A model generated the notes under the pieces. The model did no database searches. It was not told where the DNA came from and saw only the letters and a program-made list of their open reading frames with translations. Made by a program: the position numbers and the translations under genes. From Rhodobacteraceae bacterium HTCC2083 (lineage in GTDB: Bacteria > Pseudomonadota > Alphaproteobacteria > Rhodobacterales > Rhodobacteraceae), in NCBI GenBank assembly GCA_000156115.1, contig DS995276.1, positions 2,810,771 to 2,852,939 of the forward strand: DNA of 42,169 nucleotides. Reading direction: 5' to 3'. Below, one piece after another: positions 11,860 to 41,691 of the stretch (position 1 is its first letter; each line of letters begins with the position of its first letter).

Positions 11860-11980
11860 AAAGTTGCGGGCTTTAGCGTAGGTTAGTGAGGATGAGCGTT
11901 AGACGCAATGTGTAAAAACAAGTTATAAAAAAGGTAAAATCTGCTCAAAAGCCTTGTTGAGCTGATGTGGTTAGTTTGAT

Positions 11981-12035: not shown

Positions 12036-12157
12036 CTTAATCCTGAAATTATATTTATTTACAATAACATGAGACTTTCATGTATATTTTTATCCACCTA
12101 AATATACACCCTTTGTCTGTCGAGCTTTAGTATGATGTTTGATTTGGGCTAAAGTCT

Positions 12158-21268: not shown

Positions 21269-21977
21269 AACGGTTTTAGAAACCAGCGGACTGACGATGC
21301 GGTTTGGCGGTGTAACGGCAAGCGATAATGTCAATTTCAAGCTGAAGGCCCGCGAGCTGCGCTGTTTGATCGGACCTAATGGTGCGGGTAAATCGACCTT
21401 CTTCAAATGTGTGACGGGATTGCTGACACCAACTGAAGGCCACGTCTATATGCGCGGTCAAGAGGTTACAGGATGGCAACCGCATCAGATTGCCTCGCTC
21501 GGCGTAGGCATCAAAACCCAGACACCGAACGTCATGGACGCGCTCAGTGTACATGAAAATATCTGGCTGGCGGCTCGGCGATTTTACAACGTTGTTGAGG
21601 CTCGAGAGCGCGCGGATTCGATCATTGATCGACTGGCATTGGGCACAATTGCACGCACGCAACTGGGACAGTTAGCCCACGGCGAACGCCAGCGCGTCGA
21701 ACTGGGGATTGTAGCGGTAGCCGACCCTTGGCTCGTGCTGCTCGATGAACCCGCCGCTGGAATGAGCGCGCAGGACGTTGATCGCATGACTGAGATCATC
21801 CACGAACTCACTCGCTTCGCAGCCGTCGTAATCGTCGAGCACGACATGCAATTTATCCGCTCCATCGCGCAAACCGTGACCGTATTCCATCAAGGTGCTG
21901 TGTTGATGGAGGACAATGTCGAACGAGTCATGTCGGATCCCCAAGTGCGCGCCGTTTATCTAGGAAAGAAAGCGTGA
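21261..21977 (+). CDS. ABC ATPase, LivG/UrtD type
   Basis: One of the two ATPases that power the importer, 238 residues. Walker A is GPNGAGKST at 38-46 and Walker B is VLLDEPAAGMS. The signature segment reads LAHGERQRVELGIV, where the usual LSGGQ is replaced by a histidine-containing form, as in UrtD-type proteins (LSHGQ). The His switch is in VEHDM. Its stop overlaps the start of the next gene (TGATG), so the two ATPases are translationally coupled. The shape of the signature favours a urea/amide importer over a leucine-type one. Confidence 0.93.
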   Translation: MAETVLETSGLTMRFGGVTASDNVNFKLKARELRCLIGPNGAGKSTFFKCVTGLLTPTEGHVYMRGQEVTGWQPHQIASLGVGIKTQTPNVMDALSVHENIWLAARRFYNVVEARERADSIIDRLALGTIARTQLGQLAHGERQRVELGIVAVADPWLVLLDEPAAGMSAQDVDRMTEIIHELTRFAAVVIVEHDMQFIRSIAQTVTVFHQGAVLMEDNVERVMSDPQVRAVYLGKKA

Positions 21978-26388: not shown

Positions 26389-27935
26389 GATTGTGTTGAA
26401 AAACTCGTTGGTTTCAGCCTTTCGAAGAGGGTTATCGCATTGATTTTACTTGGACGTCTGTATGTCGACCACGATGTTAGCCTGTGGCGGGCACCAACGG
26501 CTTGAGTTTTGCGAGTTTCCGAAGGTTTTGGGCGATTGCTGCGAGGGTAAATTCATCTTGGACGCCGTATGGGCCGCGCAATCGGAGCCTGGCCAAGCCA
26601 AGGATGCGTTTGAGGTGGGCGAAGAGCATCTCGACTTTCTTTCGGCGGTTCTGTGCGGTTTGATTGAAGTCTGATGCTGTACATTGACGGGCAAATTCTC
26701 GGACGATCTCATATTTCTCGCGGTGGATCGCGCGCGCTTCTGTTTTTGGGCAGCATTTGGCTTTTAATGGGCAATCGGTGCAATCAGATTTAAGGGCCCG
26801 GTATTTGCGCGCTTTCCATTCTGGAGCGTTCCGGGCGGGATCGGAATAGGTGCGCCTCGTATGCTTCATCTCTTTGCCGCCAGGACAGATGTAGCGGTCG
26901 TTCTCATCATCCCAAGTGAAGTCTGATCTGGAGTAGTTCCATCAGTACGCTCGCCCTTATCAAAGACGGGAATGAAGGGCAGGATCTTACGTTTTGTGGT
27001 CAGCCAAACAAGGTTGTCAGAAGACCCATAGGCCGTATCTGCGGCGATCCAATCCGGCTTCAAGCCAAAGCACTCTTCGGTTCGGTCGATCATCTTGCGC
27101 ATGGCACCAACCTCGGCGGTTCTGTTCGAGCGGCTGGCATCCACATCAACGATGATACTGTGATCTGTATCGATCAGATAGTTGGTAGAATAGGCAAAGA
27201 AAGCGGGACCTTTGCGTGCGGCTGTCCATTGGCTGGCCGGATCGGCATGAGCAGTGAACTTGGGCTTGGTTGTCGTAGCCGCACCAAAGGCCTCGTCGTC
27301 CAAGGTGTCGAGATATTCCCGTACAGCACGTGGTGCATCATCGGGGTCGGTCATACGGGCTGCCCAATCATCAGGGTTGCTGGAGTTCTGTTTCTGGACA
27401 TCAGCGCTTATCAAACTGGCATCCACGGCAAATCCCTGACCGCCCACGAGCCCTTCCTCCATGCAACGCGCGACGGTCGTCTCAAATACGTGGCGCAGAA
27501 GATCACTCTCGCGGAAGCGACCGTGACGGTTCTTGGAAAAGCTGGAGTGATCAGGAATCCGGTCCGTCAGATCAAGGCGACAAAACCATCGATATGCCAG
27601 GTTCAGATGCACCTCCTCGCACAGGCGGCGTTCGGACCTGATGCCAGAGCAATACCCAACGAGCAGCATCCGGATCAGTAACTCAGGATCAATTGAAGGA
27701 CGGCCTGTATGGCTATAGAAATCCGAAAGATGCGCGCGGATGCCGCTCAAATCCACAAACCGATCAATCGACCGCAGCAGGTGATCTTGTGGAACGTGAT
27801 CCTCCAGAGAGAACTCATAGAACAGCGCCGCTTGCGCCTCCTGCTTTGGTCCCATCATCGCCAAATCCCCCAATCAATAAAGGAATTGAATCAGCGATTG
27901 ACCATTCGATCAAGCAAGAGTTTTTCAACACAATC
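26389..27935 (-). mobile_element. IS1182-type insertion sequence, complete ends
   Basis: A 1547-base element with perfect 18-bp terminal inverted repeats: GATTGTGTTGAAAAACTC at 26389-26406 and its reverse complement at 27918-27935. The 4-base direct repeat AGCC flanks it (26385-26388 and 27936-27939), matching the 4-base duplications known for this family. Removing the element and one AGCC restores a continuous dispersed-repeat copy, so the ends are well supported. The transposase is frameshifted, so the copy is probably immobile on its own. Confidence 0.9.
26477..27873 (-). pseudogene. IS1182-family transposase, frameshifted
   Basis: A DDE transposase split into two frames. The first part (27873 to about 26940) carries the N-terminal domain and two catalytic-type aspartates, in GFAVDASLIS and AADTAYGSSD. 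The second part, in another frame, resumes with YSRSDFTWDDENDRYICPGG and contains the zinc-like CTDCPLKAKCC segment and the VEMLFAHLKRILG glutamate. The break is near 26935-26942, consistent with loss of one base. No slippery heptamer is obvious there, so decay is more likely than programmed frameshifting. The joined protein would be about 465 residues, normal for the family. Confidence 0.88.
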
Positions 27936-28168: not shown

Positions 28169-29371
28169 TCATTCCATTTTAACGGTTGCAGCGCTCCCAA
28201 GCGAGGGACGCAGACGCTCCAACGCCTCATCCGAGTACCCCAACTCGCGCGCGACAGCATCGTTGTGCTCGCCGATTTGCGGTAGGTCACGATAGAGGCT
28301 GGGCCGGGTGCCACCGTACTCAAATGGGAGTGTTGGAACCTGCGTTCGCACGCCGTTGCTTAGGGTTACTTCGACCGTTGCACCGGTGTGGTTTACATGA
28401 GGGTCGTCGAAAAGCTGGTCCGGCCGTAGGATCGGCGCGAAGGGCAGTCCGACGCGGCCACAGTTCGTGGCGGCTTGCGACAGGCCTTGCCCTCCAAACA
28501 AGTCGCGCAGGCGCGGCATGAACGCATCTCGGCGCGCCACCCGCTGCGCATTGGTCTGAAGTTCTGCGTCCTGAAGCAGATCGTCCAGGCCGAATACCTT
28601 GCAAAATTGAGACCACTGCTTGTCGCTGACCACGCCAACAAAAATCTTCTCACCATCGGCCGTCTCGAATACGTCGTAGACCGCCCAGGCAGATACACGC
28701 TCGGGCATAGGTGCCGCGGGGACTCCAGTTTGGCGGTATTGCACCATGTGTTGAGCGACGAGGAACATGTTGTTCTCGAACAAACCCGCACGGACGAAGG
28801 TGCCTTTGCCCGTGCGCTGGCGTTCCCACAGCGCGGCCTGAATTGCAATTACCCCAAATAGTCCACCCATCACATCATTAACCGAAGCACCAGCACGCAA
28901 CGGGCACCCTTCAGGTCCCGTCATGTAAGCGAGCCCACCCATCATTTGCACCACTTCATCAAGAGCAGCGCGCTGCTCGTAAGGTCCACTGAGAAAGCCT
29001 TTCAGCGCGCAGTAGACTAAGCTAGGGTTAATCTCTTGCATTGCATCATAACCAAGGCCGAGACGATCCAGCACCCCTACACCAAAGTTCTCTATAAGAA
29101 CGTCAGATTCTCGCACGAGGTGAGTGGCAAACTTGAGACCCTCAACGGACTTTAAATTCACTGAGATGCTCCGCTTGTTGCGGTTGTAGGTTCCAAAATA
29201 GCCCGCGCCCGATCCAGGTAGGCGGCGGGTCTTGTCGCCCCCTGGAGCAGGTTCAACTTTGACCACATCAGCACCGAGGTCGGCTAGAATTAGGCCGCAA
29301 GTTGGACCCATCACCATGTGGCTGAATTCGACGACCCTGACACCCTCGAGGGGGCGTGGCGCACTAGTCAT
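28169..29371 (-). CDS. Family III CoA transferase (CaiB/BaiF type), last operon gene
   Basis: Moves CoA from a donor acyl-CoA to a carboxylic acid. The protein has 400 residues with the family N-terminus LEGVRVVEFSHMVMGPTCGLILADLGADVVKVE, the NRNKRSISVNL segment, and the likely catalytic aspartate in ALDEVVQMMGG. The ATG at 29371 overlaps the stop of the lyase gene (ATGA), so longer upstream starts are excluded. With the lyase it may form an acid-activation and cleavage pair, as succinyl-CoA:citramalate CoA transferases do with citramalyl-CoA lyase; that pairing is inference. Confidence 0.9.
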   Translation of the reverse strand: MTSAPRPLEGVRVVEFSHMVMGPTCGLILADLGADVVKVEPAPGGDKTRRLPGSGAGYFGTYNRNKRSISVNLKSVEGLKFATHLVRESDVLIENFGVGVLDRLGLGYDAMQEINPSLVYCALKGFLSGPYEQRAALDEVVQMMGGLAYMTGPEGCPLRAGASVNDVMGGLFGVIAIQAALWERQRTGKGTFVRAGLFENNMFLVAQHMVQYRQTGVPAAPMPERVSAWAVYDVFETADGEKIFVGVVSDKQWSQFCKVFGLDDLLQDAELQTNAQRVARRDAFMPRLRDLFGGQGLSQAATNCGRVGLPFAPILRPDQLFDDPHVNHTGATVEVTLSNGVRTQVPTLPFEYGGTRPSLYRDLPQIGEHNDAVARELGYSDEALERLRPSLGSAATVKME

Positions 29372-30318
29372 GTTGCGCTCTTGTTGCCAGCATAGGTAAA
29401 GCCCTTGGGCAAGCCGACCTCCGGGACGTTGCCATAAATGGCCTCGTTCGGCAGCCCGCATAGCAGTACCTCGCGTGCGATGATCAACGCATCTACATCG
29501 ATTCCTGTGCGCAGGCCCATCGCTTCCAGCATAAAGACTAGGTCCTCGGTCACAATGTTGCCGGTGGCGCCCGGCGCATAGGGGCAACCGCCAAGTCCGC
29601 CAAGCGAGGAATCGAATGTGGTCACGTCAACTTCAAGGGCGGCCACAACGTTGGCAAGGCCTTGTCCACGCGTGTTGTGCAGATGCGCACCTGCCATTTT
29701 CTCCGCACCAATCTCGCCACGCAGGCGGGCGAACATCCGTTTAATCTGGGCTGGATTGGCATAGCCAGTCGTGTCCGAAAGACCAATGCTGTCCGCGCCC
29801 GCCTTTGACAGTAGGCCCGCCATCTCGATCACCCAATCCTCAGACACCTTACCCTCGAAAGTGCAGCCAAACGCGGTCGAAATGCCGACCTCAACATCTG
29901 GACGCTGCTCGACAGGCAGTGCATCGCGAAACGCACAAACACGGCGAACCTCTTCGATCGCCTCTTCGGGAGTCTTGCCAATATTATTGAGGCTATGCGC
30001 CCGCGAGGCTGAAATCGGCATGGTCAACTTGCGCGTACCCGCTGCAATGGCGTTTTCTGCACCCTTGAGGTTGGGAACCAGCGCCAGAACCGTGAGCCCC
30101 TCAATCTTGTTCGCTTCTTTAACGAGTGCTGCGCAATCGGCCATCTGCGGCAGCAGGCGGGAGGACACGAAAGATCCTACTTCGATCTCCCGAAGCCCCG
30201 AGGCTGCCAGCGCTTTGATCCATTTGAGTTTGGCCTCTGTCGGCATCGTGCGCTTGATGCTCTGTAGCCCGTCTCGTGGGCCGACCTCACTCACCAATAT
30301 GTCAATATCCTGAGGCAC
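29368..30318 (-). CDS. HMG-CoA-lyase-like enzyme
   Basis: A TIM-barrel lyase of the HMGL-like family, 316 residues, cleaving a 3-hydroxy-3-methylacyl-CoA type substrate to acetyl-CoA and an oxo acid. The catalytic arginine region is EVGPRDGLQ at about 11-19, the metal ligands are in AGAHLHNTRGQG, and the signature GLGGCPYAPGATGN carries the active-site cysteine. The start is GTG at 30318 with a GGTGG-type ribosome-binding site. The 39-base gap before it is the only real gap in the operon. The substrate could be HMG-CoA or citramalyl-CoA; the flanking CoA transferases favour an acid activated in situ. Confidence 0.92.
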   Translation of the reverse strand: MPQDIDILVSEVGPRDGLQSIKRTMPTEAKLKWIKALAASGLREIEVGSFVSSRLLPQMADCAALVKEANKIEGLTVLALVPNLKGAENAIAAGTRKLTMPISASRAHSLNNIGKTPEEAIEEVRRVCAFRDALPVEQRPDVEVGISTAFGCTFEGKVSEDWVIEMAGLLSKAGADSIGLSDTTGYANPAQIKRMFARLRGEIGAEKMAGAHLHNTRGQGLANVVAALEVDVTTFDSSLGGLGGCPYAPGATGNIVTEDLVFMLEAMGLRTGIDVDALIIAREVLLCGLPNEAIYGNVPEVGLPKGFTYAGNKSAT

Positions 30319-30357: not shown

Positions 30358-31551
30358 TCATATCGCACCTTCCTCTTTCAAGGCTGATATCTGAGTATAG
30401 TCATAACCAAGCTCGCCGAGGATATCGTTTGTATGCTCGCCCAAGGTTGGGGGCGGCGCATTGACACTTGGGGCTATGCCATCAAGCTTGGCACCGATGC
30501 CGACAAGCTGCAGATCCTCCGGGCCAACACGGTGGGTTTGCAGCAGACCACGATCCGCAATTTGCGGATGTGCGAGCGCCTCGGGCACCGACCAGACAGG
30601 CCCCGCTGGAACCCCCCGTGATGTTAGTTTTTCGACCCACTCATGGGTGGGGGCAGTGGCAAATGCCGCCTCCAATTCGGCGGTCAGCGCGGGCCGGTTG
30701 GCCAGCCGGTTCTTGCGGTCAACAAAACGTGGGTCCTGCGCAAGGGCGGGTTTGCCGACGATCTGGCACAATGCCTCGAACTGTTCTTGCTTGTTGGCGG
30801 CAATGTTCATCACACCATCGGCGGTTCTGAATGTGCCGGACGGGCTGGCAGTGAAATTATCATTGCCGTTCGGCGCTGGGGTCTGACCGGCGATCAGATG
30901 GTTCGACACCACCCATCCCATTGTCGCGATGACAGCCTCAAGCATCGAGACGTCAATAAAGGTTCCACGGTTCTCCGCCTTGTTGGCGAGGGCGGCGGTT
31001 ACGGCGAAGGCAGCAGTCATGCCACCAATCGTATCCCCCATCGGATACCCCACTCGGTAAGGTGCGGTTTTTGCGTCACCTGTGATCGACATCACGCCAC
31101 TCATCCCCTGAACGATCTGATCATAGGCAGGCAGTTTCGCCAGCGGGCCATCCTGGCCGAAACCTGAGATGGCACAATAAACAAGGCGAGGGTTTGCCTC
31201 GCGAAGCGTTTCATAATCAAGGTCCAGACGTGCCATCACGCCGGGGCGAAAATTCTCGACCAAGGCATCGGCCTTTTGTACCAATTCTTTCAGGATGCGT
31301 TTTCCAGATGCCGATTTTAGGTTCAAGGTGATAGACCGTTTGCCCGGGTTTTGCGCCAGAAAGGATATGCCCATAAGGTTGGCGTTACGTGCGGGATCAG
31401 CCCCAAGCTGGCGCGCAAGATCACCTGCACCCGGAGTTTCGACTTTGATCACGTCAGCCCCCATATGAGCCAGTTGGTGACAGCAGAACGGACCGGCCAG
31501 CACATTGGTCAGATCAAGAATACGAAAGCCTTTTAGTGGTGCCTGCGTCAT
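30358..31551 (-). CDS. Family III CoA transferase (CaiB/BaiF type)
   Basis: A second CoA transferase, 397 residues, clearly different from the one at 28169. It has the N-terminus LKGFRILDLTNVLAGPFCCHQLAHMGADVIKVE, the FLAQNPGKRSITLNLK segment and the likely catalytic aspartate in AYDQIVQGMSG. The ATG at 31551 overlaps the aldehyde-dehydrogenase stop by 4 bases. It probably activates the acid formed by that dehydrogenase (inference). Confidence 0.92.
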   Translation of the reverse strand: MTQAPLKGFRILDLTNVLAGPFCCHQLAHMGADVIKVETPGAGDLARQLGADPARNANLMGISFLAQNPGKRSITLNLKSASGKRILKELVQKADALVENFRPGVMARLDLDYETLREANPRLVYCAISGFGQDGPLAKLPAYDQIVQGMSGVMSITGDAKTAPYRVGYPMGDTIGGMTAAFAVTAALANKAENRGTFIDVSMLEAVIATMGWVVSNHLIAGQTPAPNGNDNFTASPSGTFRTADGVMNIAANKQEQFEALCQIVGKPALAQDPRFVDRKNRLANRPALTAELEAAFATAPTHEWVEKLTSRGVPAGPVWSVPEALAHPQIADRGLLQTHRVGPEDLQLVGIGAKLDGIAPSVNAPPPTLGEHTNDILGELGYDYTQISALKEEGAI

Positions 31552-32996
31552 TGTCTGCGCCCCTCGTGCACGACCTTGGCTGCCGTAAAGAATTCGCGGC
31601 AGTAGCTGCCTTTTTCTGGCGCGCCATAAGATGATCCTTTTCGGCCGGTAAATGGCGCGTGAAAATCCATGCCTGCGGTGGGCAGATTGACCTGTATCAT
31701 ACCTGCCTCAGCGTTTTGCGTGAAGTGATCGATCTTGGCCGAATCCCGCGAGACGATGCCAGCTGACAACCCGAATTCGCAGTCGTTGGCGGTGGCAAGG
31801 GCAGCATCATAATCGGTGACGCGCAATACAGCGGCGATTGGGCCAAAGATTTCGTTCCGCGCCACGGCTGCCTGCGGCGACACATCCGTAAACAAGGCCG
31901 GAGCAAAATAATGTCCGGAGTTTTTGGATTTGACTGCGCCGCCACCGGCGGCAAGCGTTGCGCCTTCATCCACGGCTTGAGAAACGTATCGTTTGTCGAT
32001 AGCGAGCTGCGGCGCACTGGCCACCGGGCCAATTTGGGTTTCCGCTGCACGCGCATCACCGACCCTAAGATCTTTCATTGCCACGGTCATCGCGGTGACA
32101 AATTGATCGTGTATTCCTTCGGTGACGATCAGGCGAGAAGAGGCCGTACAGCGTTGCCCGGTTGAGAAAAAACTGCCCTGAATAGCGCAGTGTACCGCCA
32201 GGTCCAGATCCGCATCATCCAGCACAATCAATGGGTTTTTGCCCCCCATTTCAAGCTGCATCTTGGCCCCGCGAGCGAACAGCGCAGCACCAATATTGCG
32301 CCCAACTGGTGTGGAGCCGGTGAACGTGACACCTGAGACCTTGGGATGGGCAACAATCGCTTCGCCTACGTCTCTGCCCGTGCCCATTACCAGATTAAAA
32401 ACGCCCTCGGGCAGGCCTGCGCGAGCTATGATGTCAGACATCATCCATGCCGACCCCGGCACCAGTTCTGCAGGTTTGAACACGACTGTATTGCCATAGG
32501 CCAGCGCTGGTGCGATTTTCCATGCCGGGATCGCCAGCGGGAAATTCCAAGGCGTGATCACGCCCACGACGCCAATTGGTTCGCGCAGAACCTTAAGCGA
32601 CACGCCGCTCCGCAGAGATTGGTAAATATCGCCGGTTGTGCGATAGGCCTCGGCGGCGAAGTATTTGAACAAATGCCCCGCGCGATGCGCTTCGGCCGTG
32701 GCCTCGGGCAGGGTTTTGCCCTCTTCGCGGGCCAGCATGTCGCCCAACTCGTCCACACGTGCGAGGATTTCCGATCCGATGCGATCCAGCGCTTCGAACC
32801 GGACCAGAGGCGATGTGGTACGCCATTTGGGGAAGGCGGTGGCTGCGGCCTCAATCGCCTCAGCGGTCTGGCAGGCGCTGGCCCGAGCATAGTCGCCAAT
32901 TGTGTCGCTCAGATCAGATGGGTTGATATTGGGGGCTGCATCGCGGCCAGCGGTCCATGTGCCGGCGATATAGTTGGGAAAGGGGTCGACAGTCAT
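31548..32996 (-). CDS. NAD(P)-dependent aldehyde dehydrogenase
   Basis: Oxidises an aldehyde to a carboxylate, 482 residues. Catalytic residues are present: Asn151 in TPWNFPLA, Glu249 in LEMGGKNP, Cys283 in GQRCTASSR, plus the cofactor loop FTGSTPVG and a NEIFGPI segment. The sequence resembles the 2-oxoglutarate-semialdehyde and succinate-semialdehyde group, which fits an omega-amino or omega-guanidino acid route. No aminotransferase or amine oxidase that would make an aldehyde from an amine is encoded in the operon, so that step is missing or elsewhere. It overlaps its neighbours by 4 bases on both sides. Confidence 0.92.
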   Translation of the reverse strand: MTVDPFPNYIAGTWTAGRDAAPNINPSDLSDTIGDYARASACQTAEAIEAAATAFPKWRTTSPLVRFEALDRIGSEILARVDELGDMLAREEGKTLPEATAEAHRAGHLFKYFAAEAYRTTGDIYQSLRSGVSLKVLREPIGVVGVITPWNFPLAIPAWKIAPALAYGNTVVFKPAELVPGSAWMMSDIIARAGLPEGVFNLVMGTGRDVGEAIVAHPKVSGVTFTGSTPVGRNIGAALFARGAKMQLEMGGKNPLIVLDDADLDLAVHCAIQGSFFSTGQRCTASSRLIVTEGIHDQFVTAMTVAMKDLRVGDARAAETQIGPVASAPQLAIDKRYVSQAVDEGATLAAGGGAVKSKNSGHYFAPALFTDVSPQAAVARNEIFGPIAAVLRVTDYDAALATANDCEFGLSAGIVSRDSAKIDHFTQNAEAGMIQVNLPTAGMDFHAPFTGRKGSSYGAPEKGSYCREFFTAAKVVHEGRRQ

Positions 32997-33688
32997 AGTA
33001 TCTCCTCAAGAACGGGTCGCCACCCGATATCCTCATGCCGGTGGTCCACGGTGTTGACGTAGAAATAGATCGGGCCATGATAGCCCCGGCAAACGCGCCC
33101 GTCCGCACGGCTGGCGACAGGTTCAGCCGTCCAGCTGACCGCACCGAACCAGTTCCACAATCTGTTATGGCTGGAGTTCAGATGATCCGTGCTGAGCGGT
33201 GTTGCATCATTGCTCGGGTCCGGCTGAGGCGCGTTTGATGCACCACTGCCCCCCACCAAGGCATCCCATTCATTGGGGCTAGTCGCCCCGCGGTAAGGGT
33301 CATCGCATGGCGTATCACCGCCGGTCATCAATCGGCAGCGAAACTGCCTGCCATCAATCGACACTTGAGCGCCAAAGACATACCCGGTTTCATCCAGATC
33401 TTGCCAACTGATGCGGCTCATTAGCATCCGGTCAGCCACCAGAAGCTGAGTGCCACCCTGATTGAACACATGCCAATTCAGGCGCGCGCGCGGGTCCTTG
33501 GGGCTGTCTGTGAGGGACCAATTGTCCCAATTCGGGTCACGTTCGAATTCTGGGAGGTTACCGGGTTGCAGGCCTTCATAAGGGCAAAGTGCTGCAAGAT
33601 CCGTGATCCAAGGCCGCGTTGCCGGAGCAAGAATTTGCCCCGCATGAGATAGCCCACCCAAGCGGCGGGTGCCGATGTACTCTGTCAT
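32993..33688 (-). CDS. Unassigned protein, possible C-type-lectin/FGE-like fold
   Basis: A 231-residue protein without signal peptide or membrane segment. I cannot assign a function. The C-terminal WNWFGAVSWTAEP, RVCRGYHG and DIGWRPVLEE pieces recall the closing strands of the formylglycine-generating-enzyme/C-type-lectin fold (typically 'RGGSW...iGFRpv'). The middle, ISWQDLDETGYVFGAQVSID then RLMTGG, recalls hypothetical phage- and clostridial-type proteins of the same group. Such a fold usually binds ligands or proteins. The start at 33688 overlaps the ureohydrolase stop (ATGA), and its own stop overlaps the dehydrogenase start, so it is a core operon member. It could be a substrate-binding or assembly subunit for the ureohydrolases (speculation). 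Confidence 0.7.
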   Translation of the reverse strand: MTEYIGTRRLGGLSHAGQILAPATRPWITDLAALCPYEGLQPGNLPEFERDPNWDNWSLTDSPKDPRARLNWHVFNQGGTQLLVADRMLMSRISWQDLDETGYVFGAQVSIDGRQFRCRLMTGGDTPCDDPYRGATSPNEWDALVGGSGASNAPQPDPSNDATPLSTDHLNSSHNRLWNWFGAVSWTAEPVASRADGRVCRGYHGPIYFYVNTVDHRHEDIGWRPVLEEIL

Positions 33689-34683
33689 TGCGCTGTCACC
33701 GAACACGTACGGAAGCGGCGCAGTATCTGGAACAGCATTTCCGCTGCCAGAAATTCTGTGCGCTCCGAGGGATCAAGCGGCGGTGAGACCTCGACAATGT
33801 CCAACCCGCCCAAGGGTGCATCAGTCAATCCGTCCAGCAAATCGTAGTATTGACGAGGAGTAATACCGCTATGCACGATGGAACCCGTACCGGGAAGATA
33901 CCCTGCATCCATCGCATCAATGTCAATCGACAGATAAAGCTCGTCGCACCCCTGCATGGCATGGGCAAGCGCTTGGCGCATGACCTCTACCGGGCCCAGC
34001 TTATGCACATCAGAAGCCGAAAACACTTTCCCGCCTTGTTCTTCGATCAAGACCAAGTCACCGCCATCGACCCAGCCAGCGATGCCGACCCAGACCATGT
34101 TGGACACATCTATGTTGGGTAGTTCAGAAATCCGGCGGGCATTGGTTGCGTGGTTGAGGCTGCCCCATGCCCCCAATCTGTCAGAGAAATCCAGATGACC
34201 GTCGATCTGGATATACCCAAAGCGCGCGTTAGGGGCGCGTTTGGCCAGACCACGAGAATACCCCAGACAAGCCGGAAAACTGTTATAGTGATCGCCTCCC
34301 AATGCCAGGGGGATCGCACCAGCCGCGCTCAACCCTTCGGTCATAGCGGCGATGGCCTGCGTCGTTGCATCAACGTCTTGCGCTGTGATCTCTGCATCCC
34401 CGCAATCCACCAACCAATCGATTGCTGGCACGGTACGGCGGCTTGTGTCTGGATCAACACTTGCCCCTTGCGGACGTATGGATTGCAGCAGCGTTGTCGC
34501 GCGGCGCAGTGCATCTGGCCCGAACCTCGTGCCTAGGCGGCTTGAATGCGTCCAATCGCTCGGCATGCCCACCACGCCAATCTGACCTACACTGACGTCA
34601 CCCACGCAGCGCAAAGGCCCATCAAACAGGCGATATCCTGGTTGAGACAGGGGCGGGTGAGATGTCGATATCGCAGCAGTCAT
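33685..34683 (-). CDS. Ureohydrolase (arginase/agmatinase family), catalytically complete
   Basis: A dinuclear-metal hydrolase that should release urea from a guanidino compound, or act on a similar C-N bond. Of 332 residues, all six metal ligands of the family are present: His132 (GGDHYN), Asp161-His163-Asp165 (DGHLD) and Asp254-Asp256 (SIDIDAMDAG), with an EVSPPLDPSE segment near the C-terminus. Variations from typical agmatinase (DGH for DAH, DAGYLPGTG for DPAFAPGTG, a LGAWGSLNHATN loop) suggest an unusual substrate. It is the fourth and only complete member of a tandem array. Overlaps of 4 bases on both sides imply coupled translation. The substrate is unknown; the Pot-type importer nearby favours a cationic compound. 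Confidence 0.92.
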   Translation of the reverse strand: MTAAISTSHPPLSQPGYRLFDGPLRCVGDVSVGQIGVVGMPSDWTHSSRLGTRFGPDALRRATTLLQSIRPQGASVDPDTSRRTVPAIDWLVDCGDAEITAQDVDATTQAIAAMTEGLSAAGAIPLALGGDHYNSFPACLGYSRGLAKRAPNARFGYIQIDGHLDFSDRLGAWGSLNHATNARRISELPNIDVSNMVWVGIAGWVDGGDLVLIEEQGGKVFSASDVHKLGPVEVMRQALAHAMQGCDELYLSIDIDAMDAGYLPGTGSIVHSGITPRQYYDLLDGLTDAPLGGLDIVEVSPPLDPSERTEFLAAEMLFQILRRFRTCSVTAQ

Positions 34684-35558
34684 GTGGTTACGCTTTCCTT
34701 GGAAATTTGACGCGTCGGAGGGGCAATTCCAAATCCGAGGCGCGCATAGATAAATGCCAAAAGGGCCGTGACCATTAGTCGTTGGCCGACCTTCACCACC
34801 CCCATGCCGGGCCTGTTCGGGTTCAGGCCGGTTAGCATGATGGCGCTGACGTCAAGCTGCCCTAGGGCGCTAAGCCAATGCGACACGGTATCAAGATCGC
34901 ACCCCCCCAACCGGGGTTGATCACAAAGGGCGCTGAGCGATGTTTCAAACACGGATAAATCAAACCGGACAAACAACGGTCTTGATGCATCTCGCCAATG
35001 GGTTAGCTCAATCAGCTGCATGGCCGTGTTTGATGTCTGTGTCGGTATAGTACCGTCCGACAAGGGCGCTATGTGAAAGTCGCCTGCATCACGCGGCTTA
35101 CCGCCAAGTTGCGCTGTCTGACACATAGGGAGCGCGCTCTGCACGGTCTCAGATAAGTGATCTGAACCGCCCAAAATAACGGCACAAGCACCAGTGTTGT
35201 TGATCTGACTTGCGGCCGCCCTCAAGGCTGCATGAACTGCGTCTTCCGACCCCAGAGAGATATCGCCAAGATCACATAACCGCTCATGCAACCCGTCGGT
35301 CGATATGTCTTGGCGTGCATCAATATCAACCGGATGGCTAAATTGCGGGTTTGCATGCCAGCCAAAATATACTGAGGTTTCGCGCAATGCGCGCGGCGCC
35401 AGGGATTGCCCGGCATGCGGCGCGCCGGTGTCTTCAAACGGGACGCCCAGCACCGCCAGATCGTCGGGCCTGACATCGCAGATTGCTTTGGTCTGAGCGC
35501 GCATGAAAGACAAATGTCCTGCCATGCGCGGCAATGGGGCCGACCGTAAAGGCATCAA
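34680..35558 (-). CDS. Arginase-fold paralogue with partly lost metal site
   Basis: A 292-residue relative of the ureohydrolase. The N-terminal LGVPFEDTGAPHAGQSLAPRALRE pattern is that of agmatinase and is well kept. The metal motifs are altered: GGDH appears as GGSDH (130-134), the DxHxD site as DFHIA (160-164) and the SxDxD site as RFDLS (199-202). At least two ligands are therefore lost and the protein is probably not a normal hydrolase. The frame is intact and the gene is tightly coupled to both neighbours, so it is maintained rather than decaying. It may be a structural or regulatory subunit of a mixed oligomer (inference). Confidence 0.8.
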   Translation of the reverse strand: MMPLRSAPLPRMAGHLSFMRAQTKAICDVRPDDLAVLGVPFEDTGAPHAGQSLAPRALRETSVYFGWHANPQFSHPVDIDARQDISTDGLHERLCDLGDISLGSEDAVHAALRAAASQINNTGACAVILGGSDHLSETVQSALPMCQTAQLGGKPRDAGDFHIAPLSDGTIPTQTSNTAMQLIELTHWRDASRPLFVRFDLSVFETSLSALCDQPRLGGCDLDTVSHWLSALGQLDVSAIMLTGLNPNRPGMGVVKVGQRLMVTALLAFIYARLGFGIAPPTRQISKESVTT

Positions 35559-36229
35559 GGCGCTCCTTTCTCAAGGCGCTCAGTCACCGCCTGCAAGATC
35601 GCCAGTGCCGCGCGGGTTTCCGTGCTGCCACGATTATCTAGTGCCGGGGCGAGTCCGAAAACCGCCGCAGCAATTACACAGCCCGGAGTGGCGTGGATTT
35701 GCGCAATCATCTGTGTGGGAGATTGACCGCTCAGGCGACGCGGTTGCGACATCCATTTGCCAGCAAGCTCTTTTAAATCCACACGCAGAATGGTCGGTTG
35801 ATCATCGGATAGATTGCTTGCGATGCCCTCCGCGACCGAAACGACAGGAACATTCGCCCCCGTGATCTTTTGTCCCGCGAATCCAAGCGCTTTGAGGCCG
35901 CTGGAATCGCCGCCAACCAGCACCATGCGCGCTCCGGTTTCCAGAACCGCACCGCATTGCGCGATAACTGCGGAAAAATGCTTGTCCGGCTCTAGCGGAA
36001 ATACATTCACATCCCCCAGATCGATGGCGTTCGCGGGTGCCTTTCCGGACTGGGAAGCGTATCGTAACTGTCTTGCGAGGTAGCGTTGCCCTGCCGCTGG
36101 CCGGTCAAGATTGTCACAAAAATAACCAACCATCGCGATCTGATCGGGCACGAGATCTTCCAGATCGCCAACAGGCACGCCCAGAAAACTCGGGATCGTA
36201 TCAAATTGTATGTGCGCCGCATCACCCAT
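35555..36229 (-). CDS. Arginase-fold paralogue, predicted pseudoenzyme (short)
   Basis: A 224-residue member of the array and the shortest. VLVGGDSSG (about 103-111) corresponds to the GGDHS motif with His replaced by Ser. The DxHxD motif is not found, and ILRVDLKEL (about 147-155) replaces SxDxD with the second Asp as Lys. The fold-level features IDLGDVNVFP and ALDNRGSTETRAALAILQAV still match the family. The start at 36229 lies 8 bases inside the preceding gene. Without the metal ligands, catalysis by the usual mechanism is not expected. Recognition is weaker than for the other three, but position and motif order support it. Confidence 0.7.
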   Translation of the reverse strand: MGDAAHIQFDTIPSFLGVPVGDLEDLVPDQIAMVGYFCDNLDRPAAGQRYLARQLRYASQSGKAPANAIDLGDVNVFPLEPDKHFSAVIAQCGAVLETGARMVLVGGDSSGLKALGFAGQKITGANVPVVSVAEGIASNLSDDQPTILRVDLKELAGKWMSQPRRLSGQSPTQMIAQIHATPGCVIAAAVFGLAPALDNRGSTETRAALAILQAVTERLEKGAP

Positions 36230-36992
36230 CGCGCAGTGCCGCGTTCAGGGTTTCAATGGCTGCCAATTCCGACATACCTCGCGTATCACGCGCAGGCGCA
36301 AGGCCAGTGATCACAATCGCCTGCCAGCTACAGAGCATTGCACCGATTACGGCCACCAGCGTTTCGGGTTTCATCCCAGCAGGATTGAGACCGACAACAC
36401 CTGCCGCGTGTCCCAGATCAATGACCGACATGTCGATCCAGAGGACAGCGCGCTCGGGGCTTTCAGAAAACTCGCCGTGCCCTTCGTCCAAATGGCGGGC
36501 AGTACGCCAACCCATCTTGCGCTGGCTGATCTGATCCCAGACATCGGCAGGTTGCGCGCCGTTCAAGCCCACCCAGATCGTGTTTGCTTGTCGGGCTGCG
36601 ACATCACCTCGGGCCATTGGCATGGCCGCAACAACCGGCAAATCAGGGATGGCGTGTAGCACCGCCAAGGCAACATCTGACGCACCACCCAGAACAACTG
36701 GCACAACGTCGTTATCCACCAATTGCGTCACAAGCTGCATCAAAGCATCGGACCAATCACCCGACAGATCCAAATTTCCCAGATCCCGACCATTTACAGG
36801 CAGATCAGCGCCAAGCTGCCCGGTCATCCTGCGCAACGCATCCGGTGCTAAAGAGGCTCCCATACGCGGTCCGTTGCTGACTTCGCTTGGGACACCCAGA
36901 ACCCCGACATTGCCCGCTTCACATTGCGACACCTCGCCAAAGGGCAAGCCGCCATACCCGGCTATCATCAATCGTTTCTGCGCGTTACTCAT
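36222..36992 (-). CDS. Arginase-fold paralogue, predicted pseudoenzyme (first gene)
   Basis: The first gene of the nine-gene operon, 256 residues. GVLGVPSEVSNGPRMGASLAPDALRRMTG matches the N-terminal family pattern. VVLGGASDVALA (about 99-110) stands where GGDH should be, the DxHxD motif is missing, and VLWIDMSVIDLGHAAG replaces SxDxD with Asp187 followed by Ser189. So three metal-binding motifs are degraded. The C-terminus (AIVITGLAPARDTRGMSELAAIETL) retains the family ending. AAAGG lies about 9 bases before ATG 36992. The promoter region is shared with the divergent IclR regulator. Confidence 0.78.
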   Translation of the reverse strand: MSNAQKRLMIAGYGGLPFGEVSQCEAGNVGVLGVPSEVSNGPRMGASLAPDALRRMTGQLGADLPVNGRDLGNLDLSGDWSDALMQLVTQLVDNDVVPVVLGGASDVALAVLHAIPDLPVVAAMPMARGDVAARQANTIWVGLNGAQPADVWDQISQRKMGWRTARHLDEGHGEFSESPERAVLWIDMSVIDLGHAAGVVGLNPAGMKPETLVAVIGAMLCSWQAIVITGLAPARDTRGMSELAAIETLNAALRDG

Positions 36993-37077: not shown

Positions 37078-37785
37078 ATGTCCGACAAACCCCAAGCCCC
37101 GGACACAACAGGTGGTGTCGAAGCGGTTGAACGTGCATTGCGTGTGCTGGATTGCTTTGAGCCCGGCGATGCAGGTCTGTCCCTGAAAGAAGTTGCGGAC
37201 CGCAGCGGGGTCAACAAAGCGACGATCCTGCGTCTGAGCGTCTCGCTTGAGAAGTTTGGCCACATCACACGAGACGCCGAAGGCCTGTTTCACCTCGGCC
37301 CATCTTTGTGGCGTCTTGGATCCGTATTTCGCCAGAACCTGCGCATGGGGCCTGTTGTGCGCCCGGTGTTGGCGGAGCTGGTAAAATCTACGGGGGAAAG
37401 TGCGTCGTTTTACGTGCAGCGCAGCAATTCCGGCGTCTGCCTTTATCGTGTCAATTCGCACAGGCTTGCGCGGGATCATGTCGAAGAAGGCGAGATTATA
37501 CCGCTGAGCATGGGCTCGTCTGGTCAGGTGCTGGATGCTTTTTCCTTGTGCAAAGGCAAACAGGCCGCCGACATTCGCAAGGCTGGGTATTATCTGAGCC
37601 TTGGCGAGCGTGATCCCGACGTCGCTGGATTGTCTGTTCCTGTGCTTGGGCTCGAAGGTGAGTTGCTGGGCGCGGTCAGCCTGTCGGGTCTGCGCGCCCG
37701 CTTCAGCAAAACTGCTGTCGAAGGCTACCGCGCTGCGGTTCTGGATGCTGCCCGCCAGATCCGGGTTGAGTTTGGCGAAAGATAA
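37078..37785 (+). CDS. IclR-family transcriptional regulator
   Basis: A 235-residue regulator with an N-terminal winged helix-turn-helix (LSLKEVADRSGVNKATILRLSVSLEKFGHI, about 37-66) and a C-terminal GAF-like ligand domain (LGERDPDVAGLSVPVLGLEGELLGAVSLSG near its end). The start at 37078 has AAAGG about 8 bases upstream; an open frame extends to 37012 but would run through the putative operators. IclR proteins usually control neighbouring catabolic genes in response to a pathway acid, so the divergent ureohydrolase operon is the likely target and the Pot-type importer a possible second one. It converges with the permease gene with 8 bases between stops. Confidence 0.92.
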   Translation: MSDKPQAPDTTGGVEAVERALRVLDCFEPGDAGLSLKEVADRSGVNKATILRLSVSLEKFGHITRDAEGLFHLGPSLWRLGSVFRQNLRMGPVVRPVLAELVKSTGESASFYVQRSNSGVCLYRVNSHRLARDHVEEGEIIPLSMGSSGQVLDAFSLCKGKQAADIRKAGYYLSLGERDPDVAGLSVPVLGLEGELLGAVSLSGLRARFSKTAVEGYRAAVLDAARQIRVEFGER

Positions 37786-37793: not shown

Positions 37794-38597
37794 TCATTTC
37801 GTCTTGTCCTTTCCCCGACCGATCAACTGAACGCCGATGAGCATCCCGACCGACACAACAATCAGGCAGGTCGAAATCGCAGCAATGGTCGGATCAAGCT
37901 GATCGCGCAGGGAATTGAACATGCGGCGCGTAATCGTGGCATTGTCTCCACCCGAGATCAGCATCGAAATCACCACCTCATCCAGCGACGTGATAAAAGC
38001 CAAAAAGGCCCCTGTCTGGATCGAGAATTTGACCTGCGGCACTGTCACCGTCCACAACGCATAAGCCCGTGATGCCCCAAGGCTGCGCGCCGCCAGTTCC
38101 TGATCGAAATCATAGTTTTGCAAGCCCGACATGACAGTCACGATCACGAAAGGTAGCGCCAGCGCCGTATGGGCGATCACAATTCCGGTAAGCGTGTAAT
38201 TGAGCCCCAGCTTGGCATACAGGCTGAACACGCCGACGGCGATCAGGATCACCGGTACAACAATGGGCATGATCACGAGGATCTGGGCAGTGTTCCGGAT
38301 CCGAGGGGTCGAACAATGCAGGCCGTAGGCACAAAGTGAGCCCAAAGGTGTTGCGATTGCGGTGGTGAGTACAGCTGCGATCAAGGATGTTTTGGTGGCG
38401 CTCATCCATTCCGAGGACGTGAAATAGGCCGTGTACCAGCGAAATGAGAATGACGTTGGCGGGAATTCCAGAAATGAGGCTCCAGAAAACGACATCGGGA
38501 TCACGATCAGTGTGGGCAGGATCAGAAAGAACAGCACCGCGATGCCGACGACCGTCAGCCACAGACCGTCAATTTTACGTTGTCCGACTTGTTCCAT
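37794..38597 (-). CDS. ABC permease, PotC type
   Basis: An inner-membrane permease of the polyamine/opine-type ABC class, 267 residues with six predicted helices. The cytoplasmic EAA-type loop reads ELAARSLGASRAYALWTVTVPQV, which contacts the ATPase. It is the last gene of the importer operon, 10 bases after the PotB-type gene. It belongs to the class that imports spermidine, putrescine and related cations, but also mannopine and phosphonates, so the solute is not fixed by family. Confidence 0.93.
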   Translation of the reverse strand: MEQVGQRKIDGLWLTVVGIAVLFFLILPTLIVIPMSFSGASFLEFPPTSFSFRWYTAYFTSSEWMSATKTSLIAAVLTTAIATPLGSLCAYGLHCSTPRIRNTAQILVIMPIVVPVILIAVGVFSLYAKLGLNYTLTGIVIAHTALALPFVIVTVMSGLQNYDFDQELAARSLGASRAYALWTVTVPQVKFSIQTGAFLAFITSLDEVVISMLISGGDNATITRRMFNSLRDQLDPTIAAISTCLIVVSVGMLIGVQLIGRGKDKTK

Positions 38598-38607: not shown

Positions 38608-39489
38608 TCAGCGCATAAATAGTTTGTCGAGACCGAAGACTCGGTTCATCAGCCAGATCATCACCAGTGCCAGCAGCAACAGGACAACACCCAAGGCTGA
38701 TGCAGCCCCCCAATTGGAATAGACTGTGATGGTGCTTTCGATCCGCTGCGCGAGCATCTGCACGCGTCCTCCACCCAGCAAAGCAGGCGTGACGTAAAAC
38801 CCAAGCGACAGGATGAAGACCAGCACGATACCGGCAAAAAGACCCGGCAACGACATTGGGAAAAACACTCGCCAGAACGCTCCGCGCGGGCTGGAGCCGA
38901 GCCCAACAGCGGCGCGAACCAGATCGGTGTCAATGCTACGCATCGTGGCATAAAGCGGCAAAATCAGAAACGGCAGCATGATATGCACCATGCCAATGAT
39001 TGATCCTGTCAGGTTATGCGCCAGTTGCAGCGGCTCTTCGATAATGCCCATCGACATCAGCGACGAATTGATGACGCCATTGCGCTGCAACAAAACCAGC
39101 CAAGCGTAGGTCCGCACCAGAACCGACGTCCAAAACGGGACCAATACGAACACCATCAAAATGGCAGCCGTTCTATCCGGCACCTTGGTCAGCCAGTAAC
39201 ACAGCGGATACCCCAGAAGGACACAGATCACCGTCACGGCAATACTGATCTGAAAGGTGACCACAAAGGTTCGCCTGTACAAAGCGCTCTCAAAAATGCG
39301 CGCGTAGTTTTCTAAGCTGGGTTCGCCCGCCGCATTGTAAAACGACAGCGACGATAGCCAGAAAATCGGTAGAAACACGACAATCAGAATGGCGAGAACG
39401 GCGGGCATCGACAGCCCCAAAAACGTCAGGCGTTCACGGCGTTCTTCGGATTTCAGCGTGCTCGCGTTCTGAAGTTCTATGACGCTCAT
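38608..39489 (-). CDS. ABC permease, PotB type
   Basis: The partner permease, 293 residues. An N-terminal cytoplasmic extension of about 22 residues precedes the first helix. Six helices follow, with the coupling loop VRAAVGLGSSPRGAFWRVFFPMSLPG. The start at 39489 overlaps the stop of the ATPase gene by 4 bases. Together with the PotC-type protein it forms the channel of the importer. Confidence 0.93.
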   Translation of the reverse strand: MSVIELQNASTLKSEERRERLTFLGLSMPAVLAILIVVFLPIFWLSSLSFYNAAGEPSLENYARIFESALYRRTFVVTFQISIAVTVICVLLGYPLCYWLTKVPDRTAAILMVFVLVPFWTSVLVRTYAWLVLLQRNGVINSSLMSMGIIEEPLQLAHNLTGSIIGMVHIMLPFLILPLYATMRSIDTDLVRAAVGLGSSPRGAFWRVFFPMSLPGLFAGIVLVFILSLGFYVTPALLGGGRVQMLAQRIESTITVYSNWGAASALGVVLLLLALVMIWLMNRVFGLDKLFMR

Positions 39490-40574
39490 GCCACATGCTC
39501 CGGCACGATGATTGTGTCTTCGGGATGCAAGGCAAGGCCGATGCGTTCACCCTTTGAGGGCAGACCCGTCTGGCCCGCGCGATTGGCGGGGACGCGTACG
39601 TTGATCTGGCCTGCGCTGTCGTGCTGAACAATCACCAGTACGCTATCGCCTTGATAGATGATGTCGTGGACATGGCCGGATAAATCATTGGCAGTTTCAG
39701 GCACAGCGCCTGCGGTGACCTCCAGCAACTCTGGTCGGATCACCAGACGATGACCACCGCGACCGATGGCAATGGGCAAGTCAGATTTAAGCAAGCGCCC
39801 ACCCAGTTGCGCCTTATCGTTGGTCACCTCCACCGGTAAGGAAACCGACTCCCCGATAAAGTCCGCTACAAAGAAACTGTGAGGCTGACGGTAAAGACGC
39901 TCTGGCGTTTCGACCTGCTCAATCCGCCCGTGATTAACCACTGCAATCCGGTCCGACATTGTCAGAGCTTCGCGTTGGTCATGGGTTACATAGACGACGG
40001 TCGCATCCAGCTTTTGGTGCAGCGCCTTCAATTCGATCTGCATATCTTCGCGTAGTTTTTTGTCGAGCGCGGACAGGGGTTCATCCATCAGGATGATCTG
40101 CGGCTCGAATACCATGGCGCGGGCAAGGGCAACGCGCTGTCTTTGGCCGCCGGACAATTGGGTGATGCGCCGATCCCCGTAACCGCCAAGCTGTACGGTA
40201 TCCAACGCCCGCTCGGCGCGGGTCTTTTGATCGCTTTTGGAAACGCCGCGCACTTTTAATGGATAGGCCACGTTTTCAGCTACGGTCATGAAGGGAAACA
40301 GCGCATAGCTTTGAAAAACCATGCCAAGGCCGCGCTTGTGCGGTGGTGTTGCAATCATTTCTTGATCGCCAAATCGGATTGACCCGCCATCGGGGCGCAC
40401 AAATCCAGCGAGCGCCATCAATAGTGTCGTTTTGCCAGAGCCGGATGGCCCAAGCAGTGTCAGGAATTCACCCGCAGCAATATTCAGCGATACATCAAGG
40501 AGCGCTTTGACCGATCCATAAGCTTTGCTCAGGTTGGCGATGTCGATGGGAAGGGATTGGGCTGCAGTGGTCAT
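39486..40574 (-). CDS. ABC ATPase, PotA type
   Basis: The ATPase of the importer, 362 residues. Walker A is GPSGSGKTT at 42-50, the signature is LSGGQRQRVALARA, Walker B is IILMDEPLSALD and the switch histidine is in YVTHDQ. A C-terminal TOBE-type regulatory domain occupies about residues 285-362, as in PotA and other polyamine/iron-class ATPases. The gene starts 58 bases after the binding-protein stop, with a strong hairpin in between. Confidence 0.95.
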   Translation of the reverse strand: MTTAAQSLPIDIANLSKAYGSVKALLDVSLNIAAGEFLTLLGPSGSGKTTLLMALAGFVRPDGGSIRFGDQEMIATPPHKRGLGMVFQSYALFPFMTVAENVAYPLKVRGVSKSDQKTRAERALDTVQLGGYGDRRITQLSGGQRQRVALARAMVFEPQIILMDEPLSALDKKLREDMQIELKALHQKLDATVVYVTHDQREALTMSDRIAVVNHGRIEQVETPERLYRQPHSFFVADFIGESVSLPVEVTNDKAQLGGRLLKSDLPIAIGRGGHRLVIRPELLEVTAGAVPETANDLSGHVHDIIYQGDSVLVIVQHDSAGQINVRVPANRAGQTGLPSKGERIGLALHPEDTIIVPEHVA

Positions 40575-40632: not shown

Positions 40633-41691
40633 TTATTGCTGGATCAGCGTGTCGAACTCTTCGGTCAACTCACCCAATTGGCCGATGTAAAAGGCCGGGT
40701 CGACAAGAAGCTGCTTATCGTAGTTGCTCGGATGTGTGTTAACCAACAGAGCCTGCTCGTCCGAGATAATGCCAGTGTCAAACGCGCCCGTATTCACTGG
40801 ACCCAGCGGCATCGTGACCGCCAGCCGCGCCTGCGCTTCGGCACTGAGCAGCTCATTAATCAGACGCATTGCATTCTCGACATTAGGCGCGCCTTTGGGC
40901 ACCAGCAGGCAATCGACATCCATCGTGCCACCATCAAATGCGTAAGCCACCTCAATGCCGGATCCGATCACGCTTTCCACACGGTTATGGCCCATGTGGA
41001 TTACGTCTACCTCACCGTCGCGCAGCAATTGTGCGGATTGTGATCCGCCACGATACCAAACGGTGACTTCGGGTGCGATTTCTCCCAGTTTGGCCCAAGC
41101 ACGCGCGATGCCTTCGTCCGTGGCCAGCATGTCATAGACTTCTGCCATAGGTACACCATCGGCCATAAGGGCAGCCTCAAGGTTATAGTTCACCTTGCCG
41201 TGCATGCCGCGCTTGCCGGGGAAGTTTTCCAGATCCCAGAACTCTGCCCAATTGGATGGTCCGGCACCGTCAAATGCGTCGGTGCGGTAGGCAATCACTT
41301 TAGTGAAGTTGATAAAGCCAATGTAGTTCTCATGGATCAGTTCTTCGGGGATACCCGTTGTGTCGACGATTGAATAATCAATCGGCTCAAGGCTGCCTTC
41401 GCGGCTGAGTGTTTCGCAGGAGGGTAAATCTTGCTCGGTCACATCCCATGCGACGGCACCCGCTGTGATTTGTGCGCGTACGTCCTGAATACCGTTTGTC
41501 GTATCTTCCTTGACGGTGACATTCAGCGCACTGGCTGCAGGTTCCAGCATCGCTGAGCGCAAGGCATCCTGAAATGAGCCTCCCCAGGATGCAAACACCA
41601 CATCACCTTCGGCAAATGCAGGCGCGGCCATGACCATGCTGCTGGCCACGAGGCTGGCGGCAAGCGACAGTCTTCTCTCTACTTTTTTCAT
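40633..41691 (-). CDS. Polyamine-type ABC substrate-binding protein (PotD type)
   Basis: The periplasmic receptor of the importer, 352 residues. A Sec signal peptide (MKKVERRLSLAASLVASSMVMAAPAFA, cleavage near residue 27) is followed by VVFASWGGSFQDALRSAM, typical of the spermidine/putrescine-like receptor group. ATG at 41691 has GGAG 9 bases upstream. It is the first gene of the operon. Because the next locus codes for ureohydrolases, a guanidino or polyamine-like cation is the plausible cargo, but the binding-site residues do not let me name it. Confidence 0.93.
   Translation of the reverse strand: MKKVERRLSLAASLVASSMVMAAPAFAEGDVVFASWGGSFQDALRSAMLEPAASALNVTVKEDTTNGIQDVRAQITAGAVAWDVTEQDLPSCETLSREGSLEPIDYSIVDTTGIPEELIHENYIGFINFTKVIAYRTDAFDGAGPSNWAEFWDLENFPGKRGMHGKVNYNLEAALMADGVPMAEVYDMLATDEGIARAWAKLGEIAPEVTVWYRGGSQSAQLLRDGEVDVIHMGHNRVESVIGSGIEVAYAFDGGTMDVDCLLVPKGAPNVENAMRLINELLSAEAQARLAVTMPLGPVNTGAFDTGIISDEQALLVNTHPSNYDKQLLVDPAFYIGQLGELTEEFDTLIQQ

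Follow-up and report, generated by a model that had tools for sequence, protein, structure and literature searches.

Enzymes of the arginase family are commonly monomers or homomultimers (PMC11271267). Metformin hydrolase, described in 2024 under the names MefH, MetCaCb and MfmAB, is an α2β4 hexamer with an inactive β subunit that is devoid of four or five of the six metal ligands (the counts differ between the passages of PMC11399263 and PMC11271267 drawn on here), and dimethylguanidine hydrolase (DmgH) likewise combines these two subunit types (PMC11399263, PMC11271267). Both systems have tandem ureohydrolase genes, one encoding all six ligands and one not, and in both the inactive subunit is required and supplies a lid for the active site (PMC11399263, PMC11271267). 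In metformin hydrolase the first 23 residues of the inactive subunit cap the active site of α, Y22 and F82 of β line the pocket around a docked substrate, and β has an extended loop at its C-terminal end that lies at the subunit interface (PMC11271267). Loop L2* of the neighbouring subunit aids ligand binding in plant arginases, as has been suggested for some agmatinases (PMC7370999), and the N-terminal extension in the hexamer of the guanidine hydrolase GdmH partly protrudes over the neighbouring subunit (PMC11410670).

Here we describe a locus that shares the tandem arrangement of metformin hydrolase and DmgH but has four paralogues where metformin hydrolase has two gene types (α and β). It lies in a 42,169-nt stretch of the genome of Rhodobacteraceae bacterium HTCC2083 (the window, by which we mean the whole stretch) and consists of four adjoining minus-strand open reading frames (ORFs), A to D, followed by a gene E. 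An earlier, sequence-only reading of this DNA had recognised four tandem arginase-fold genes, three of them predicted to be non-catalytic, and had thought a hetero-oligomer with three dedicated pseudoenzyme subunits to be new. A pseudoenzyme subunit in a ureohydrolase is in fact known from the α2β4 metformin hydrolase; what remains novel is that there are three types of inactive paralogue and that they are consistently linked, and no report of a three-inactive-type or four-gene set was found in the titles and abstract starts of the open-licence PubMed Central literature. We propose, with moderate confidence and on the strength of sequence comparisons, that A to D encode one hetero-oligomeric ureohydrolase in which D would hold the metals and carry out catalysis, C would provide the lid and A and B would be structural, and which would act on an imported guanidino or amidino substrate.

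Four tandem ureohydrolase paralogues and their metal sites

The five genes are arranged as follows.

36222..36992, minus strand: gene A, pseudo-ureohydrolase of 256 amino acids with one of six metal ligands (ORF, PF00491, profile comparison, alignment)
35555..36229, minus strand: gene B, pseudo-ureohydrolase of 224 amino acids with one of six ligands (PF00491, profile comparison, predicted ureohydrolase-like fold)
34680..35555, minus strand: gene C, pseudo-ureohydrolase of 291 amino acids with one of six ligands, proposed lid subunit (PF00491, profile comparison, conservation)
33685..34683, minus strand: gene D, ureohydrolase of 332 amino acids with six metal ligands, proposed catalytic subunit (PF00491, alignment, relatives in the Protein Data Bank, PDB)
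32993..33688, minus strand: gene E, 231 amino acids (start inferred; the ORF opens at 33706)

The frames of A to D are intact and overlap, as the sequence-only reading had it: A and B share 8 bases, C and D share 4, and B and C share 1 or 4 depending on whether C starts at an ATG (34680-35555, as in homologues, 291 amino acids) or at a TTG (34680-35558). All four proteins exceed the Pfam cut-off of 22 bits for the Arginase family PF00491 (A 51.4, B 25.7, C 46.3 and D 208.1 bits), which has three more members elsewhere in the HTCC2083 genome. In profile-profile comparisons A, B and C align to D over most of their length with probabilities of 99.8, 99.3 and 99.1, and A aligns to B with 99.4. The AlphaFold2 model of B, the weakest family match, has a mean pLDDT of 82.4 and a pTM of 0.84, and when it was compared to the PDB with Foldseek (best E-value 6.1e-10) the 50 matches listed were ureohydrolases with query TM-scores of 0.61-0.77. 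The predicted structure of B thus has the three-layer α-β-α ureohydrolase fold, whose absence from the three proteins would have refuted the idea according to the sequence-only reading, and A, C and D are assigned to it by profile homology. Homologues of the two shortest proteins can be longer: A has 295-321 amino acids in 7 of 17 aligned homologues (256 in the window), and B has 285-312 in 7 of 19 (224 in the window).

Metal ligands were counted in family alignments with 18 rows for A and 20 each for B, C and D, the window's included, in which the alignment of the ligand columns is uncertain where chains are shortened. Window D contains all six (H132, D161, H163, D165, D254 and D256), as do 17 of the 20 D rows, the window among them; the other three have five. 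In window A, B and C, by contrast, the Asp equivalent to D254 is the sole ligand left, the other five being substituted or missing. The replacements had been read correctly from the letters, with GGAS, GGDS or GGSDH in place of GGDH and Asp-x-Ser or Asp-x-Lys in place of the DxD pair; the His of GGSDH in window C sits one place off the ligand column. None of the 58 aligned A, B and C sequences keeps more than three ligands (maximum 2 in A, 3 in B and 2 in C), and a homologue with a rebuilt metal site, which would have spoken against dedicated inactive subunits, was not among them. The Asp equivalent to D254 is kept in every A, B and C row, while His132, Asp161 and His163 are gone from all of them except for the C protein of locus L039, where a His aligns with position 163. 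Five of the 18 A rows and seven of the 20 B rows retain Asp165, and those seven B rows retain Asp256 as well, giving them three ligands each (L027, L029, L030, L035, L036, L038 and L039); these B proteins are 285-312 residues long. The description of a tandem partner with three to five of its six ligands substituted (the range in the passages of PMC11271267 used here) applies three times at this locus.

Linkage, descent and selection of A to D

Gene E was used as a probe of the GTDB genome collection and returned 31 loci, in which the presence of E is therefore by construction. A, B, C and D occur in this order with E in 22 of them, the conserved co-occurrence by which the sequence-only reading had proposed that its idea be checked. 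Seven of the remaining nine end at a contig edge (L014, L026, L028, L033, L037, L039 and L042), and L040 and L041 carry no more than a fragment of E. Because 22 of the 31 loci have all four genes in the same order, the arrangement is more than chance. The labels of the 22 loci, which span alpha-, beta- and gammaproteobacteria, include Ruegeria, Shimia, Pelagimonas and other Rhodobacteraceae-type labels; Hyphomicrobiales, Methylobacterium and Rhodospirillales; Comamonadaceae and Rubrivivax; and Pseudomonadales, Thioglobus and one further gammaproteobacterium. L039, a bin whose label is Desulfuromonadales, carries B-C-D-E at the end of its contig. Since many loci are metagenome bins, taxon labels may be wrong, and L019/L020 and L013/L015 are near copies of each other.

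Neighbouring genes overlap in most of these loci: A/B in 20, B/C in 22 and C/D in 18 of the 22 sets measured, which were 20 database loci (L017 and L034 left out) and L011 and L012 from a genome search; start codons were assigned by rule, and L012 and L023 are apparently one contig. All but one of the 22 complete loci have intact frames. The exception is L017 (a bin, 2192-12377), where several genes, including B and D, are broken into overlapping frames, probably by assembly errors. The 31 loci contributed 25 rows to the alignment of E, 19 each to those of B, C and D and 17 to that of A, after removal of near copies (L015 and L020), L023, the E fragments of L040-L042, truncated loci and, except for its E, L017; four detected genes, D in L014 and A in each of L028, L034 and L037, were left out.

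The system is rare. E is found in 3 of 295 genomes of the family, this genome counted, and C in 2 of 385 genomes of a class sample, its own counted, the second being the contig of L018. In a phylum sample 8 of 398 genomes match profile C at an E-value of 1e-15, and the HTCC2083 genome alone has a C protein (438 bits). Across these samples, in which the best five or six candidates per genome were scored, C proteins reach 433-438 bits and the other matches, which are agmatinase-like, 59-66 bits. Plasmid-borne copies were considered and discarded: A and C have no match at an E-value of 1e-5 in 72,556 plasmid records, and D matches 438 of the records, all below 60% identity, the 15 listed all being named agmatinase.

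A tree of 59 rows recovers A, B, C and D as one clade each (support 99/98 to 100/100), and together with a ureohydrolase of L041 they are split by a supported branch (99/97) from 12 other ureohydrolase rows, which represent 11 distinct genes as two rows are the same gene. Since each gene forms one clade and the outer branch is supported, the quadruplication is older than its spread. Branches are longer in A, B and C than in D, and median pN/pS, computed for each gene over the 21 pairs formed among the window and its six close relatives, is 0.29 for A, 0.30 for B, 0.23 for C, 0.13 for D and 0.21 for E.

These data bear on whether A, B and C are decaying duplicates without function, which we regard as very improbable. 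In favour of decay, ligands have been lost, the chains of A, B and C are reduced in certain hosts relative to others, and 7 of the 20 B rows keep three ligands and 285-312 residues; but median pN/pS of 0.23-0.30, intact frames in all complete loci other than L017 and the retention of all three genes across classes led us to reject decay. The substitution pattern indicates that A, B and C are under purifying selection, and because they are intact, overlapping, selected and co-inherited they are not decaying, which upholds the earlier argument for selection.

A proposed complex with C as lid subunit

We infer a physical complex, its stoichiometry, its metals, the role of C and the substrate from what was computed, namely homology, ligand loss, linkage, purifying selection, the fold prediction for B and the following conservation pattern. 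In C the most conserved 15-residue stretches lie in helix 1 and loop 2 (ALRETSVYFGWHANP), at the N-terminus (APLPRMAGHLSFMRA) and towards the C-terminus (GVVKVGQRLMVTALL), whereas in D the three most conserved stretches of this length are metal-site segments. Scored over 13 representatives, with segment limits set by us, the N-terminus and the α1-loop2 segment of C both reach 0.68 against 0.54 for the whole chain, while the N-terminus and loop 2 segment of D reach 0.39 and 0.49 against 0.68. The motifs PRMAGxLxFMR and RETSxYFG are invariant in the N-terminus and α1-loop2 of C, and its third conserved stretch lies near the C-terminus, where β of metformin hydrolase has its interface loop. Because the N-terminus and loop 2, the places at which the inactive subunit of metformin hydrolase caps its partner, are among the best conserved parts of C and fall below average in D, C is a candidate for the provider of the lid, and the simplest reading of this inversion may be that the lid has been handed from D to C.

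On this model D would bind two metal ions and hydrolyse a C-N bond in a guanidino (or amidino) compound that carries a substituent and is brought in by the linked ABC transporter. A, B and C would descend, together with D, from a common stock through duplication and would now be dedicated structural subunits whose metal site has been lost. C would act as β does in metformin hydrolase, its N-terminus and loop 2 extending across D's active site to form the substrate entrance, A and B would occupy the remaining positions of the usual dimer of trimers, and the product would be handled by an aldehyde dehydrogenase, a CoA-transferase and a C-C lyase. More tentatively still, with confidence falling somewhat short of even, the comparisons can be read as an obligate, asymmetric hetero-hexamer of four paralogues (D with the metals, C with the lid, A and B as further inactive subunits) that would serve an undescribed guanidino catabolism, the phage-akin E included.

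The same pattern can be set against the possibility that D is a self-sufficient homo-oligomer and that A, B and C act in trans, in metal delivery, assembly or substrate sensing, rather than as stable subunits. Nickel chaperone genes adjoin those of metformin hydrolase, whereas none was recognised among the window genes examined, and a search of the whole genome with PF01155 (HypA) gave no match, against matches in 7 of 14 control genomes (HypB was not searched). As a HypA-type nickel chaperone is lacking, a helper of another kind could be needed, which A, B and C might provide. The poor conservation of the N-terminus and loop 2 of D and their good conservation in C weigh against this alternative, as does the fact that A, B and C align over most of D and are near its length in several homologues, which suits oligomer partners more than chaperones; we consider it quite unlikely. 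We judge it improbable that A, B and C form a metal-free assembly of their own, for ligand sensing or another reaction, with D as a separate enzyme of the same pathway. In favour of such an assembly, D evolves more slowly than A, B and C, which have their own conserved stretches, but these three are linked to D and overlap with it, no A, B or C occurs without D in the E-found loci where the contig reaches far enough, and the conserved segments of C coincide with elements that act on the active site of a partner in the systems cited above.

Several observations weigh against the proposed hetero-oligomer of A to D or against parts of it. The structural models cover B and E, the complex itself is a deduction, and co-linearity of the genes could come from co-regulation alone. 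Window A and B are without a large part of the chain found in D, possibly one needed for trimer contacts, and neither has an obvious lid motif, which makes the role of A and B the weakest part of the proposal. The comparison of conservation in C and D lacks a single-gene ureohydrolase as control, and N-termini are often variable; the placing of Y63-F64-G65 of C near F82 of MetCb comes from counting from the first strand, that is from positional arithmetic and not from an alignment. GdmH, MetCa and MetCb are absent from the tree. All loci were found through E, so that A, B or C living without E would escape, the search with profile C being the one independent search. No gene for the step from amine to aldehyde was recognised. 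Finally, three gammaproteobacterial D proteins have a Cys at the position of Asp254 (SLCIDAMD) and keep the other five ligands:

L030:7003-7989, D protein with Cys for Asp254 (alignment)
L035:5267-6253, D protein with Cys for Asp254 (alignment)
L036:7003-7989, D protein with Cys for Asp254 (alignment)

If the proposed hetero-oligomer is real, this widely transferred natural system with three different inactive paralogues would show inactive subunits to be a recurrent route in this family. The B proteins would then offer a natural series of intermediate states, from those with three ligands and 285-312 residues to the one-ligand, 224-residue B of the window, and an unknown catabolic pathway would be indicated, since the operon encodes uptake and downstream steps.

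Substrate, neighbouring genes and gene E

Among PDB entries D scores best against guanidine hydrolase, guanidinopropionase, guanidinobutyrase and agmatinase: guanidinase 9fek scores highest (119.9 bits), and the scores are 111 bits for guanidinopropionase, 68.1 bits for MetCb and at most 56.4 bits for MetCa. The best PDB matches by profile are a formimidoylglutamase for A, an agmatinase for B and GdmH (7esr, 59.8 bits) for C, all above MetCb. Since other ureohydrolases outscore MetCa and MetCb, membership of the metformin hydrolase clade is not supported, although the system may work like metformin hydrolase. GdmH (7esr/7oi1, 9fek), the best PDB match of both D and profile C, is a single gene in the passages of PMC11410670 used here, as opposed to four genes at this locus. 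Likewise, 3-guanidinopropionase, guanidinobutyrase and agmatinase (3nip, 3nio and 4dz4) are homologous to D and are listed as possibly using the neighbouring subunit in ligand binding, and the passages of PMC7370999 that deal with them mention no pseudoenzyme partner.

Thr97 and Trp305 of GdmH (Synechocystis numbering) are specificity residues (PMC11410670). Trp305 aligns with Ser268 of D and Thr97 approximately with His46, and both D residues are invariant in the 20 rows. Because the Trp of GdmH is an invariant Ser in D, free guanidine was judged improbable as a substrate and a larger guanidino compound likelier. It is fairly unlikely, in our view, that the heteromer is real but breaks a bond that releases no urea, such as another amidine or formimino-type C-N bond. 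Precedents exist in formimidoylglutamase, a member of the family and the best match of profile A, and in metformin hydrolase, whose products are guanylurea and dimethylamine and not urea (PMC11399263); moreover, although urease is present in the genome, the sole match to urease alpha is about 373 kb from the window. The four best PDB relatives of D named above point away from it.

The closest single-gene relative of D in the tree is the ureohydrolase of L041 (Ruegeria sp. HKCCD8929), which has six ligands by eye and is without A, B and C on its stretch; it is followed by a 3' E fragment and by the beginning of an aldehyde dehydrogenase gene. As a side observation, this second locus of HKCCD8929 (L041:5368-8636) encodes an oligopeptide-type transporter (by eye), a PF02274 protein of the ADI family and the D-like ureohydrolase, and the PF02274 protein resembles an amidinotransferase by eye.

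The genes around A to E in the window are the following.

28169..29371, minus strand: second type III CoA-transferase (start set by eye from the domain match; the ORF opens at 29587)
29368..30318, minus strand: HMG-CoA-lyase-like protein
30358..31551, minus strand: type III CoA-transferase (PF02515, Pfam)
31548..32996, minus strand: aldehyde dehydrogenase (PF00171, Pfam), present in most loci
37078..37785, plus strand: IclR-family regulator, divergent from A (start inferred; the ORF opens at 37012)
37794..38597, minus strand: ABC transporter permease, PotC-type by eye, position conserved
38608..39489, minus strand: ABC transporter permease, PotB-type by eye, position conserved
39486..40574, minus strand: ABC transporter ATPase, PotA-type
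40633..41691, minus strand: substrate-binding protein

Thus a transporter and a divergent IclR regulator lie upstream of A to D, and E, the aldehyde dehydrogenase, a CoA-transferase and the HMG-CoA-lyase-like gene lie downstream, a set that differs from the transporter and downstream genes of metformin hydrolase and suggests an operon for the catabolism of a substituted guanidino or amidino compound. The nearest solved relatives of the binding protein are opine-type (MotA, agropine), GABA-sensor and polyamine-type binding proteins. In L030, L035 and L036 the transporter genes run straight into A-B-C-D-E with no regulator between. A citrate-synthase-family gene follows the CoA-transferase in L027 (11382-12161) and L038 (11410-12261), where several other loci have an HMG-CoA-lyase-like gene; because of it, retro-Claisen cleavage of a 3-hydroxyacyl-CoA may be the common chemistry. 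A homarine-type pathway was considered as an explanation and dropped, as no bearing literature was found by title and abstract start.

Window E has no Pfam match; in its family there are weak matches (best E-value 0.011) of 3 of 26 members to each of two Pfam families of unknown function. No significant PDB relative was found by sequence (best E-value 0.038) or by fold (none at an E-value of 0.001 or better), its model being middling (pLDDT 72.2). The C-terminal motif HRHEDIGWRP is invariant in the alignment of 26 sequences. Among phage proteins E matches families of unknown function and, less strongly, structural proteins of the virion, and by tblastn 9 of 50,697 phage records match. In one of these, Faecalibacterium phage Mushu (MG711460 34243-34920), E is 35.5% identical over 99% of its length to a stretch annotated as 'Hoc-like head decoration' and reverse transcriptase; the phage protein thus has a reverse transcriptase as its neighbour, an arrangement reminiscent of the target of a diversity-generating retroelement. 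This match suggests a domain common to phages and a catabolic operon.

Elsewhere in the window, a flotillin-family protein (16377-18041) is encoded between two urea-type substrate-binding proteins. The urea-type binding protein at 18087-19307 is followed by permease- and ATPase-like genes (by eye), ahead of a 791-amino-acid frame (21974-24349) that fuses a UrtE-like ABC ATPase to an amidase. An integrase with primase- and helicase-like genes (6962-11835) and a transposase-like frame (26866-27873), both recognised by eye, suggest mobile elements near the catabolic genes.

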